Source: an uncultured Erysipelotrichaceae bacterium
Lineage (GTDB): Bacteria; Bacillota_I; Bacilli_A; RFN20; CAG-826
Length of the DNA stretch: 55,462 nt
Assembly (NCBI GenBank): GCA_900315885.1
Contig: ONAT01000006.1
Location: 1 to 55,462, forward strand
Reading direction: 5' to 3'
Positions 5,104 through 33,242 of this stretch are shown one piece after another; position 1 is the first letter of the stretch; the number at the start of each line of letters is the position of its first letter. The notes under the pieces were generated by a model. That model was not told the origin of the DNA. It made no database searches and worked only from the letters and a program-made list of their open reading frames with translations. The position numbers and the translations under genes are program-made.

Positions 5104-5628
5104 ATGAGATACAAATTTAGATGCGACGAAACAAATTACATGGATGAAGAAACAAAGAAAAAATATAATATGATGAATAACTTAAAGCAACAATTAGAGT
5201 GGGTGAAAAGACAACTCGAATATATAAGTTATCAAGAAAAATATGAACCAAGCCTTGAATTAAAAGTTGGCGAAATTTATGAATTCGATTGGGGTGTTAA
5301 TGTTAACTGCGAATTTTCAAATCGTCATTATGGAGTTGTCTTGGCGGATAGTCACGCGAACAATCCTTTAGTAATTGTCTGTCCTCTTAAGTCAAATAAG
5401 TATGGTGCGAATCCTTGTAGCGATATTAATCTTGGACACATTGAAGGATTGGTAACTGAACGCGAGACGCTCGCAATCGTGAACCAAATTAGAGCGCTCG
5501 ATAAGATGAGATTATACGTTCGCCCAATTATAAATGATACTAAAGATGAGAACGCAAAGATAAAACTTAACGATGTGCAAATTAAAAAATTAATTGATGG
5601 CTTAAAACATGTTTTTATTAAGATTTAG
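5104..5628 (+). CDS. MazF/PemK-like protein with an N-terminal extension, no antitoxin gene
   Basis: Residues about 50-174 carry the MazF/PemK fold: VGEIYEFDWG, then NRHYGVVLADSH, then VIVCPLKSNK, then VNQIRALDKMRL. Family members are mRNA-cleaving toxins. The conserved Arg is present (NRHYGVV). The Thr usually found after strand 3 (the T of a PLT/AIT motif) aligns with Lys in CPLKSNK, so catalysis may be altered. The first 50 residues are an added charged helical segment (NNLKQQLEWVKRQLEYI) not found in short MazF. No antitoxin ORF lies upstream; the gene is alone with its own GAGG site. The antitoxin may be elsewhere, or the protein may have another role. Confidence 0.75.
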   Translation: MRYKFRCDETNYMDEETKKKYNMMNNLKQQLEWVKRQLEYISYQEKYEPSLELKVGEIYEFDWGVNVNCEFSNRHYGVVLADSHANNPLVIVCPLKSNKYGANPCSDINLGHIEGLVTERETLAIVNQIRALDKMRLYVRPIINDTKDENAKIKLNDVQIKKLIDGLKHVFIKI

Positions 5629-29185: not shown

Positions 29186-30064
29186 TTATTTATCTTGGTA
29201 GCCGAATTCTCGTAAGCAACGAGTAGAATTGCGCCACTCCTCTTCAACACGCACAAATGTTGTTAAATTAACTCTTTTATTTAAGTAAGTTTCGATGTCT
29301 TTGCGTGCTAAAACACCAATCCTTTTAATCATTTTTCCACCCTTACCAATAAGTATTCCTTTTTGGGTGTCCCTTTCAACAACAATCGTAGCATAAATGT
29401 TATATTTATCTTTCTTTTCTTCGATTTTTTCAACGTAAACTGCAACTGAATGAGGTATTTCTTGCTTAGTTAAATAAAGTATTTTTTCTCTAATAAATTC
29501 AGATATGACAAATGCATTGTCTTTATCTGTAACTTGTTCACGAGGGAAGAATTGTGGTCCTTCACTTAAACAGTTTTTTAGTTCTTTAATTAAGTCATCA
29601 ATTGAAACATTATTTAAAGCAGATATTTCAATAAATTTTGAATTAGGGAACAATTCGCGATATTTTTCTTTTAATCTCGTAATTAATAAAATATTTGTCA
29701 AATCAATCTTATTAAAGGCAACAAAAATTGGTGCATCACTATGAATGTGATCCACTAAATATTGGTCTCCTTCGCCAAATTCAAGTGATGAGTCAACGAG
29801 TAAAACAATAGCTTCGACATCACGAGTGGAGGCAAAAGCTACCTTATTCATATATTCGCCTAACTTAAAATAAGGTTTATGAATACCTGGCGTATCCACA
29901 AAAACAATTTGTGATTCTTCATCGTTATAGACACCCATAATAGAGTTACGAGTTGTTTGAGGTTTAGGTGATATAATCGATACTTTTTTATTTAAAATGG
30001 CATTGAGTAATGTTGATTTTCCAACATTAGGTCTACCAATAAGTGCAACAAAACCGCTTTTCAT
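29186..30064 (-). CDS. era: GTPase Era
   Basis: Era binds 16S rRNA during 30S maturation. The 292-residue protein has G1 GRPNVGKS (residues 10-17), G3 DTPGIH, G4 NKID, and a C-terminal KH domain with GKGGKMIKRIG. The full length matches the family. Its ATG overlaps the end of the ybeY-cdd gene at base 30064. It is followed by recO. Confidence 0.96.
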   Translation of the reverse strand: MKSGFVALIGRPNVGKSTLLNAILNKKVSIISPKPQTTRNSIMGVYNDEESQIVFVDTPGIHKPYFKLGEYMNKVAFASTRDVEAIVLLVDSSLEFGEGDQYLVDHIHSDAPIFVAFNKIDLTNILLITRLKEKYRELFPNSKFIEISALNNVSIDDLIKELKNCLSEGPQFFPREQVTDKDNAFVISEFIREKILYLTKQEIPHSVAVYVEKIEEKKDKYNIYATIVVERDTQKGILIGKGGKMIKRIGVLARKDIETYLNKRVNLTTFVRVEEEWRNSTRCLREFGYQDK

Positions 30065-30915
30065 TATAAATCACTTGAATCAAAGGCAAATGGGAGTAAT
30101 TCTTCAACAGATGTTTCTTTGATTTTTCCTTTTAAATTACCCATAATAATTTTTCCTTCACGAGGGAATAATTCTGAGATAACTTGGCGGCAAGCTCCAC
30201 ACGGAGAACATACATCTTCCGTATCAGCAACAAGTGCTAAAATTGCGATATCATCTTTTTTGTAGCCATTCATATATGTGTGATATAGAGCGTTTCTTTC
30301 AGCGCACATACAAAGTGGGTAACTTGCATTTTCGATATTTGCGCCAAGGAAATGATTTCCATCTTTCGTAACCACAACCGCTCCAACTTTAAAATGTGAA
30401 TAAGGGGTGTAAGCTAATTTGCGAGCTTCTTTTGCTAATTCAATTAATTCTTCATCTGTCATAAAAACTTCTCCTTTTAGTATTTCTTCTTGTAATGAAA
30501 ACATCACTACTTCATCTTCTTTTTTCATATGGTCATAGCCAAGCAAATGTAATAATCCATGCACAAACAAGAAACACATTTCGCGTTTAATAGAGTGTCC
30601 ATAAGATTTAGCTTGTTCTAATGCTTTATCAACAGAGATAAAAATTTCACCAAGTAAAGTGGGAATACTACCCTTAATTTTTACTTCGCCTTCAACTTCA
30701 TCAAGGAAGGCAAAACTAATAACATCTGTAGGACGATCAATATGTCGATATTCCTTATTAATTTCATGAATTCTTTCGTTATTAATTAACGAGACATCAA
30801 CCTCATAATCAGCCTTAATTTTGAGACGTTTAAAAGTTTTCTTCATTAAGGCTAAATATATCTTTTCATACTCATCGTATTTAGGATTATATTCATTTTC
30901 AAATTCTAACTGCAT
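30064..30915 (-). CDS. ybeY: Fusion of rRNA-maturation endoribonuclease YbeY with cytidine deaminase
   Basis: The 283-residue ORF joins two enzymes. Residues 1-151 are YbeY, the zinc RNase of 16S 3'-end maturation (RPTDVISFAF and the metal motif HGLLHLLGYDH). Residues 152-283 form a full cytidine deaminase of the small tetrameric type (CAERNAL and PCGACRQ zinc motifs, SHFKVGAVV). In Bacillus ybeY, dgkA and cdd are separate neighbours; here dgkA is lost and ybeY runs in frame into cdd. A strong AAAGGAG lies eight bases before the Met152 codon, so free Cdd may also be made. No stop or frameshift separates the halves. Confidence 0.93.
   Translation of the reverse strand: MQLEFENEYNPKYDEYEKIYLALMKKTFKRLKIKADYEVDVSLINNERIHEINKEYRHIDRPTDVISFAFLDEVEGEVKIKGSIPTLLGEIFISVDKALEQAKSYGHSIKREMCFLFVHGLLHLLGYDHMKKEDEVVMFSLQEEILKGEVFMTDEELIELAKEARKLAYTPYSHFKVGAVVVTKDGNHFLGANIENASYPLCMCAERNALYHTYMNGYKKDDIAILALVADTEDVCSPCGACRQVISELFPREGKIIMGNLKGKIKETSVEELLPFAFDSSDL
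30460..30477 (-). promoter_or_regulatory. cdd: Internal ribosome binding site and start for cdd
   Basis: On the minus strand AAAGGAG (30477-30471) lies eight bases before ATG (30462-30460) inside the fused ORF. It coincides with the usual cytidine deaminase start and would give a 132-residue Cdd. Confidence 0.6.
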
Positions 30916-30965: not shown

Positions 30966-32051
30966 TTATAAGTTGTTGCTTTTTATAAAACTTATTTTGT
31001 CATCAATTAAAAGAATCTTTGTGATGGTAAAATAAGTTAAAGCGTTGAGAGTAAATTGAAAAACAATGTAATCAACACCAATTAAGTTTTTCGTAATCAT
31101 TTGAAGTAAGCAAAGTAAAATATTAACAATAATTAATGCGATTTTTTGAAATAAAATGACATTTCCAAATCGTTTGCTTGCCTTTAAGGTTTCATCAATA
31201 TTCCATTTTATGTTTTCTAAAAATTCAATACGATTCTTTTCTTTGTTCGTTCCATTTGTAATAAGAAAAAATCCAAAAGACAAAATAGTCACTAAAACAA
31301 AAAAGATATATCCTTTTTCAAGTGAAGTTATAAACAAAAATAACAAACCAAAAAATGTAATAATATGTGTAGGAATTATAATAATATTTTGAATTATATT
31401 TTGTTCATATTTATTGACAATTACTAGATTATTATAGTTTAAATTAAGTCGCTTATTTGTCGTTTCAATAAACTTAAAAGAATATGTTTTTTGTAGCCAC
31501 AAAAACATAACTCCTAAAATAGTAAGCAAGACAAAATTTATAATATTATTTAAAAAGAGAAATGAAAGAAAAAATGATAAAGAGGCAAATAAATTCATAG
31601 AAGTAGCTATAATCAGTTCTTTATTCATTGGCTTTTTGCTTGCCTTAAATTTTATATTTCCAACATCTTCTACTACTAAGATGTTACCGCAAAAAACGCT
31701 TTGAAATATGTCTTCTTCTAATGATAATTCACCAATACTAGGATCAAATATTTCATATTTATTTTTTGTTATACTTGTTAATAAAATGTAATGAAAATGT
31801 TTGTCTATTTTTATTAAACATATTATCGGTAGATTTTGTGTACTTAAATCAGACAAATTATTTGTTTCATACCCTTGTAAATCAACATTATATTCTTTAG
31901 CGATTTTTTTAATATCAAGCATTGATAAATTATTCTTTTTCTTATTATCTAAAAATAAAAAATCTTTATTCTTGTGTAAATTCGCTAACAAAACTTTTAA
32001 AACAGCAAACCCGCAATCACTTTCACAACTTTGTAAAACACTATATTTCAT
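30966..32051 (-). CDS. C39-peptidase-like membrane protein without an ATP-binding domain
   Basis: Residues 1-130 resemble the C39 double-glycine peptidase domain of peptidase-containing ABC exporters: Gln7, Cys13 (SCESDCGFAVL), His87 (HYILLTS) and Asp103 (IFDPSIG) form the expected oxyanion hole and triad. Residues about 145-350 contain roughly six hydrophobic helices like an exporter membrane domain. The protein ends at 361 residues with no Walker motifs, so the motor is missing. It sits between yqfD and ybeY-cdd, where Bacillus has phoH and yqfF. It could process a peptide or be an adapted half-transporter with a separate ATPase. The sporulation link is inferred only from position. Confidence 0.7.
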   Translation of the reverse strand: MKYSVLQSCESDCGFAVLKVLLANLHKNKDFLFLDNKKKNNLSMLDIKKIAKEYNVDLQGYETNNLSDLSTQNLPIICLIKIDKHFHYILLTSITKNKYEIFDPSIGELSLEEDIFQSVFCGNILVVEDVGNIKFKASKKPMNKELIIATSMNLFASLSFFLSFLFLNNIINFVLLTILGVMFLWLQKTYSFKFIETTNKRLNLNYNNLVIVNKYEQNIIQNIIIIPTHIITFFGLLFLFITSLEKGYIFFVLVTILSFGFFLITNGTNKEKNRIEFLENIKWNIDETLKASKRFGNVILFQKIALIIVNILLCLLQMITKNLIGVDYIVFQFTLNALTYFTITKILLIDDKISFIKSNNL

Positions 32052-32080
32052 AAAAACCTCCTATTATACATATAGGAGGA

Positions 32081-33007
32081 TTAATTGGTAATTCCGATAT
32101 TTTCGAGACAAGTAAAATGAATTGAAAGAACATATTTGTTATTTGTTTTGTTAAATTTTAAGACTTTTTCCTTAATTATCTTTTCTTTTTCGTTAAAGCC
32201 TTTACACATTACACTTTTTGCTTCTTCTAGACACTTAATAAATGCTTCTCCTTCATCATTAAGAGTGGAACTTGTCTCCACAATATTCCATGTTTTCGCA
32301 TATACTTCTCCTAGCGCTCCAATAAAAATTGCGTTACCTTGAGCATCGAGTATAGAATCACTAATTAACAAATCACCTTGTCTTACATATTGCCCTTCTT
32401 CAATCATCTTTACGCCACTAGTCAAGACATAATATTGAATTAAACCATTCTTTTTGGCATATAAAGAGGTGTCACTTTCAGGAATTGTTACTACTTCTTT
32501 ACGCATTTTATAATTGATATTTACTACTGTACCTTTTAAGGTCACTTCTACAAAATCAATTTCATTTCTAAACTCTGTTTTAAGATTATTTTCTATGGTT
32601 TTTAATTCATTAAAATTTGGTTTTTCACTATATTTTTTTAAGCCATATTCATTAGTTTTTAAGGCTATTTGATTATTCATTGCCTTATTTTCTCCATTAA
32701 TATTAATCGAAGAAATTCGTGAATTTAACAAGAAAAAGAAAGTAAGAGAAACAATAAGCGCCACTAAAGTTATGCGATACATTAATAAATTACGAAAACG
32801 GGATAACAAACCCACACGATTAATCACTTTTGCATCTTTATATAGTTTTAAAATCTTCTTCTCATTAAAAATATCAATTGATAACGTATAAAGATAATCA
32901 GAATTCTTTTTAAAATTATAGACAACAATATTATTATTCTTTAAATTTTCTAACATGGAAAGTGAAGAATATGCTTTAACTTGCACAATAATTTTATTAT
33001 TTATCAT
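32081..33007 (-). CDS. yqfD: YqfD-like sporulation protein
   Basis: The 308-residue protein follows the YqfD family plan: a soluble N-terminal part, a short Arg-rich segment (VGLLSRFRNLLMYRITL), one transmembrane helix near residues 76-95, then an extracytoplasmic part with ININGENKAMNNQIALK, EVTLKGTVVNINYKMRKE and RQGDLLISDSI. In Bacillus yqfD belongs to the mother-cell regulon and is required for efficient sporulation, with unknown biochemistry. It overlaps yqfC by 11 bases and is followed by the C39-like gene. Confidence 0.8.
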   Translation of the reverse strand: MINNKIIVQVKAYSSLSMLENLKNNNIVVYNFKKNSDYLYTLSIDIFNEKKILKLYKDAKVINRVGLLSRFRNLLMYRITLVALIVSLTFFFLLNSRISSININGENKAMNNQIALKTNEYGLKKYSEKPNFNELKTIENNLKTEFRNEIDFVEVTLKGTVVNINYKMRKEVVTIPESDTSLYAKKNGLIQYYVLTSGVKMIEEGQYVRQGDLLISDSILDAQGNAIFIGALGEVYAKTWNIVETSSTLNDEGEAFIKCLEEAKSVMCKGFNEKEKIIKEKVLKFNKTNNKYVLSIHFTCLENIGITN

Positions 33008-33242
33008 AGCCTAACCTCACATCTTCAATTATTCCTTTGACATCAATTTCATTTTTATCAAAAAAACAAATAGTTAGATTTATACCAATAACACTAAGTA
33101 TGATATTTTTCATATCAATAATTATTTGATTTTCATCGACACTAATGAGTTTTTTATATCCGACAACTTTTAATACTCCGTTTTCATAAACAAACATGCT
33201 ATCACCATTTAAATATATGGTAAAGCAAGTAAAAAAAGACAA
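32997..33242 (-). CDS. yqfC: YqfC-like sporulation protein, N-terminally short
   Basis: The reading frame matches the YqfC core (NGDSMFVYENGVLKVVG, then the LTICFFDKNEIDVKGII end). Family similarity reaches upstream of the best ATG at 33197 (GGTGAT upstream), into codons that can start only at TTG 33242. That TTG lies in the T-run of the rpsU terminator with no ribosome binding site. About 25 residues normally present at the N-terminus are missing. Either the protein starts at 33197 and is 66 residues long, or the gene is degenerating. It overlaps yqfD by 11 bases. Confidence 0.6.
   Translation of the reverse strand: MSFFTCFTIYLNGDSMFVYENGVLKVVGYKKLISVDENQIIIDMKNIILSVIGINLTICFFDKNEIDVKGIIEDVRLGYDK

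Follow-up and report, generated by a model that had tools for sequence, protein, structure and literature searches.

The window considered here, a 55,462-nucleotide stretch of DNA from an uncultured Erysipelotrichaceae bacterium, carries a gene for a C39 peptidase that sits after yqfD and before ybeY, at a place where phoH and yqfF are both missing. This raises the question of what the peptidase acts on and whether its function has anything to do with its neighbours. The first-pass annotation had put the gene in the phoH/yqfF place and had proposed a membrane peptidase coupled either to sporulation or to a small secreted peptide. As to the place, both genes are indeed missing there, but one f4 genome (locus L142) has the order yqfD–phoH–C39–ybeY with a short C39 gene, and since phoH still lies between yqfD and the C39 gene in that locus, the slot occupied is that of yqfF.

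The open reading frame (positions 30966–32051, minus strand) begins with ATG behind an AGGAGG Shine-Dalgarno sequence and encodes 361 amino acids. Pfam, profile and fold matches describe its product as a C39 peptidase joined to an ABC-type membrane domain without an ATPase. Peptidase_C39 (PF03412) is the sole Pfam match in the ORF and covers residues 4–128 with an E-value of 2e-21. The peptidase domain (31668–32042, minus strand; Pfam and conservation) contains Gln7 and the triad Cys13, His87 and Asp103, all intact and correctly placed in the first-pass annotation, and these four residues are invariant in 39–40 diverse family proteins that share about 20% identity. In a wider sampling there are exceptions: three g24 genomes have no alignable Gln, and a few genomes of f5 and f4 have lost Gln or Asp. 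Of the six membrane helices that had been proposed, all fit the helices of an AlphaFold2 model of the 361-residue protein (pLDDT 91.9, pTM 0.85), but simple hydropathy clearly shows five. The ATPase had been reported absent and is: the ORF stops at 361 residues, and neither an ABC_tran match (Pfam scan of the ORF) nor a C-terminal domain with Walker A and B motifs is found in it. The ORF is confirmed as a real gene, and no second C39 protein turned up in the host genome (1.32 Mb, 97% complete).

Fold and profile comparisons both lead to peptidase-containing ABC transporters (PCATs). The best PDB fold match of the model is PCAT1 (E = 1e-12, query TM 0.6), and the family profile aligns to PCAT1 over the C39 and membrane domains (model positions 5–301, E = 2e-18), with a 12-residue gap over ‘hvlklpmnffns’, a segment we take to be the first ATPase-docking (coupling) helix of ABC exporters. 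PCAT1 and related transporters (PDB 4ry2, 6v9z) have the same N-terminal C39 domain, the same catalytic residues and a homologous membrane domain. In contrast to them, the family described here has no ATPase, the presumed docking-helix segment is missing from its profile alignment, its candidate substrate gene is not adjacent, and the protein is conserved across a whole order. Among NCBIfam models the best match is NF045998, for the Mbov_0121 family peptidase-domain ABC transporter of mycoplasmas (residues 7–177, 2e-20); the score is 72, where the cut-off is 500, and the model has 673 positions, the ATPase region among them. The likeness to Mbov_0121 extends to location, in that C39 proteins of a family reading TGA as Trp hold the same slot before ybeY–era. 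There a gene directly upstream of ybeY–era (L138:7012–8829 and L139:6987–8786, both plus strand; translation table 4) encodes a C39 protein some 600 residues long in which Pfam recognises neither of the ABC domains, which would fit a degenerate ATPase.

Full-length PCATs are present in other orders of the class. At the short end, the C39 proteins of f2 and f4 have about 120–170 residues and one helix or none; they keep Cys, His and Asp, and those of f2 keep the Gln too. The best explanation, judged from these comparisons, is that the C39 protein descends from a PCAT that lost its ATPase and whose membrane domain is eroding, and because the catalytic residues have outlasted both changes, we regard it as a putative PCAT-derived maturation peptidase. 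What appears to persist along this presumed reductive series is the peptidase and not the transporter. In f17, which belongs to another order, a double-glycine peptide of some 55 residues is conserved next to a full-length PCAT at 10/10 loci (L128–L137). The core of this peptide is ...G...G..IRR......C, its gene often lies just before rpsU (for example L132:5277–5447, minus strand, and L137:9538–9702, plus strand), and it belongs to no Pfam or NCBIfam family; a regular-expression search for an IRR...C peptide of this type in the examined loci of the present order found none.

A candidate substrate emerged when 39 genomes were searched with TIGR01847, a bacteriocin leader model. The search returned a 58-residue ORF in several genera, the only order-wide double-glycine ORF seen, plus Nif11-like peptides in a few genomes. 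The genomes G007, G009 and G017 (L147–L149, L159–L172) encode several paralogous peptides in which a long, Nif11-like leader that ends in GG precedes a Cys-rich core resembling a zinc ribbon. A profile of the 58-residue peptide has matches in 143 of the 147 genomes of the order and in 120 of its 121 high-quality genomes, the host included. The host gene (G000 contig C20:48340–48517; profile match at C20:48343–48516) has valS on one side and radC directly after it, followed by minC and minD, and the host copy of the peptide is MHKLSDFELSKLKGGEAITIATVMAILAIALVTVITYRLFASKSGNATFPGGFKFTWD. The peptide starts with a leader of the double-glycine type, continues with a single membrane helix and has a conserved tail, PGGFxFxW. 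The Gly at −1 is kept in all tabulated peptides except that of G206, and in this genome the Gln of the C39 protein is not alignable either. Position −2 holds Gly, or in most or many f1 genera V, S, T, P, A or C. AlphaFold2 predicts, with modest confidence (pLDDT 75), a single long helix and a beta-hairpin at the C-terminus. The ratio pN/pS is about 0.1–0.2 in close pairs, and the peptide is evidently under purifying selection.

No curated family covers the peptide, its matches to class II bacteriocin models are weak and confined to the leader, and its close relatives come from MAGs of uncultured Bacilli, Bacillales or Erysipelotrichales. An open-access literature search found no description of the C39–peptide pair, and one elsewhere is possible. 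Most often tens of kilobases separate the two genes; in G122, G128 and G140 they are close together, but whole blocks lie side by side there and we gave this proximity little weight. The suggested coupling to a small peptide is thus borne out insofar as an order-wide 58-residue peptide with a C39-type leader exists, its cleavage being a prediction. As for a double-glycine peptide close to the C39 gene, the conserved candidate lies elsewhere in the genome and not next to it.

The region directly ahead of the C39 gene (32052–32096, minus strand) contains a promoter-like element common to the peptide gene, comEA–comEC and dprA, with CGGAATTA at 32089–32096 and CTATAT at 32070–32075 in the spacing CG-N19-CTAYNT. 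An inverted repeat, CCTCCTATATGTATAATAGGAGG (32057–32079, minus strand), overlaps the Shine-Dalgarno sequence and is common to the C39 and peptide genes; in 753 kb of the host genome, only these two genes have CCTCC-N-GGAGG just upstream of the start. Within a genome the two upstream regions are alike, and between genomes they change together, the closest pairs being those of G053, G028, G007 and G032. Over 59 genomes the summed alignment score of matched upstream regions was 752, against 485 ± 17 (maximum 568) in 20,000 permutations, and with the Shine-Dalgarno sequence masked it was 606 against 418 ± 14, figures whose permutation p-value is an upper-end measure of strength since related genomes are not independent. 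In the host genome the C39 upstream region was the best of 11,074 windows, and in 25 of 48 genomes (3.9 expected) it outscored every control gene of its own locus. About half of the genomes have two upstream regions without significant similarity. C39 genes of g24 without a Shine-Dalgarno sequence still have CTAYNT roughly 12–17 nucleotides before the start (by eye, uncounted), and for this reason we prefer to read the CCTCC/GGAGG repeat as a likely promoter and not as the RNA hairpin hiding the Shine-Dalgarno sequence that we had first assumed.

A weight matrix made from seven C39 and peptide upstream regions of the genus only, with the Shine-Dalgarno sequence excluded, was run over 739 ORF upstream regions in 753 kb, or 57%, of the host genome. 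The two training genes took the top two ranks, dprA was fourth (15.6 bits) and comEA–comEC fifth (15.4 bits) of the 739, and from rank 7 onward scores were 8.6 or lower. The CG-N19-CTAYNT spacing is common to the C39, peptide, comEA and dprA genes of the host. ComEA was identified by SLBB and HHH_3, DprA by PF02481 (4e-67), RadC by PF04002, and ComEC by its Lactamase_B domain, its size and its place after comEA. At rank 3 stands a nucleotidyltransferase-like gene, AbiEii-type by eye (L307:6106–7068, minus strand; 20.0 bits), and at rank 6 a MazF/PemK-like ORF in the window (5104–5625, plus strand; PF02452, 2e-7) with a weaker element (10.6 bits); with such genes at these ranks, the element may serve more than competence alone. 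In streptococci comEA, comEC, dprA and radC are core genes of the SigX regulon (PMC5069739). Since the element is common to comEA–comEC and dprA, which are SigX core genes in streptococci, the genes for the C39 protein and the peptide probably belong to a competence regulon, a placement drawn from one genome. Within the 57% of the genome read, a ComG pilus and a sigma factor were not found, and a T2SSE query from f17 for ComGA or another pilus ATPase had no match.

Taken together, we favor the reading that the C39 protein is a membrane-anchored competence-regulon maturation peptidase that cuts the leader from the 58-residue membrane peptide, and we give it a probability of roughly 60%. As we infer the steps, from cleavage through membrane insertion and competence induction to a structural role in uptake, the cytosolic C39 domain would cut the peptide after Gly and so remove the double-glycine-type leader, and the mature 43-residue peptide would stay inserted, with the N-terminus of its helix on the inner side of the membrane and a short hairpin as its tail. 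The C39 gene, peptide–radC, comEA–comEC and dprA would be read from one promoter type as a natural-competence regulon, and the mature peptide might act in the DNA-uptake machinery as a pilin-like component. Against this reading, the −2 residues other than Gly in f1 are unusual for C39 substrates, a few genomes have lost the peptidase Gln or Asp, and the two genes usually lie far apart, with about half of their upstream pairs not significantly similar.

The membrane domain, homologous as it is to that of PCATs, would also suit a split exporter, in which the C39–membrane protein works with a distant ATPase to export a double-glycine bacteriocin, a fratricin of the CibAB kind or a pheromone. The chief rival, in our view, is a fratricin or signal role, since in streptococci CSP and CibAB are double-glycine peptides tied to competence and handled by ComAB (PMC6560143), and the weak leader-level matches of the peptide to class II bacteriocin models agree with it. 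We nevertheless think such an exporter unlikely: the presumed ATPase-docking helix segment is missing from the profile alignment, the membrane domain itself has been lost in two other families, a full PCAT, where present, is additional to the C39 protein, and the peptide, tail included, is conserved order-wide at a low pN/pS, unlike diversifying bacteriocins and pheromones. The streptococcal ComA/ComC (CSP) and CibAB systems share with the present pair a C39 peptidase, a double-glycine peptide and a tie to competence (PMC6560143), but ComA keeps its ATPase and exports, whereas no exporter is seen here, and CSP and Cib differ between strains or species, whereas here there is a single conserved membrane peptide.

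The other side of the locus offers a different candidate for the function of the peptidase. In nearly all of 39 family loci the C39 gene lies directly upstream of ybeY–cdd–era–recO–glyS–dnaG–rpoD, a few loci having one or more extra genes inserted or being interrupted by a contig end. The constant downstream neighbour, ybeY–cdd (30064–30915, minus strand; Pfam and locus comparison), is one fused ORF of 283 residues in the window and two separate genes in both other loci of the genus. C39 homologues occur in 133 of the 147 genomes of the order; matches are missing in G002, G030, G130, G212 and G232, where ybeY is likewise not recognisable, so these five absences look like assembly gaps and not losses. 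The ybeY–cdd–era–recO neighbourhood is constant across the order, the same slot is held in the TGA=Trp family and peptide cleavage is a prediction, all of which would agree with another housekeeping substrate tied to ybeY–era, the peptide merely being under the same promoter. We consider this improbable, as no other order-wide double-glycine ORF turned up in the 39-genome leader search and the upstream elements of the C39 and peptide genes co-vary genome by genome.

Upstream of the C39 gene lie yqfD (32081–33007, minus strand; Pfam YqfD, 6e-40) and yqfC of the YabP family (32997–33242, minus strand; Pfam). The C39 gene is present in three of the four genomes of the genus, at 34–38% identity and in the order rpsU–yqfC–yqfD–C39–ybeY–cdd, and yqfC–yqfD precede it in f3 and f4 as well, the only other groups in which yqfD keeps this place. 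The linkage is therefore not unique to the host genome, and the C39 gene has no exporter ATPase next to it; the recurrence is narrow, however, in that a recognisable YqfD occurs in 3 of 196 family genomes. Although yqfC–yqfD adjoin the C39 gene in these groups and spo0A is in the host genome, we rejected the first proposal, that of a mother-cell sporulation protein coupled to YqfD, as highly improbable, given that the C39 protein occurs in 171 of the 196 family genomes, 168 of them without a recognisable YqfD, and that the element between yqfD and the C39 gene points to competence genes. The presence of yqfC–yqfD at this place reads as an old neighbourhood retained and not as coupling; the host may sporulate, since Spo0A is present, yet the C39 gene does not track yqfD.

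Under the maturation-peptidase reading, the pair would resemble a prepilin peptidase acting on ComGC or Flp pilins, with which it has in common a small precursor, a predicted cytosolic leader cut after Gly, a hydrophobic helix and the link to competence; the modelled peptide is a long helix with a beta-hairpin. In Micrococcus luteus, Flp pili, made of small Flp pilins, are used for transformation (PMC4322843). In contrast to prepilin systems, the peptidase here is a cysteine peptidase of the C39 type and not an aspartyl A24 peptidase, the peptide has its Glu at +1 behind a double-glycine-type leader where the class III pilin leader has Glu at +5, and a T2SSE search over 57% of the host genome turned up no pilus ATPase. 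That the competence pilus of the order is a 43-residue mini-pilin whose leader is cut by C39, replacing ComGC and the aspartyl ComC, is a tentative and rather doubtful extension.

The C39 protein would be an exporter-derived peptidase that has become an order-wide fixture without its motor, paired with a small peptide present in nearly every genome. If the competence link is true, C39 processing would serve DNA uptake without export, and the pair would offer a testable entry into DNA uptake by the reduced genomes of uncultured gut bacteria.
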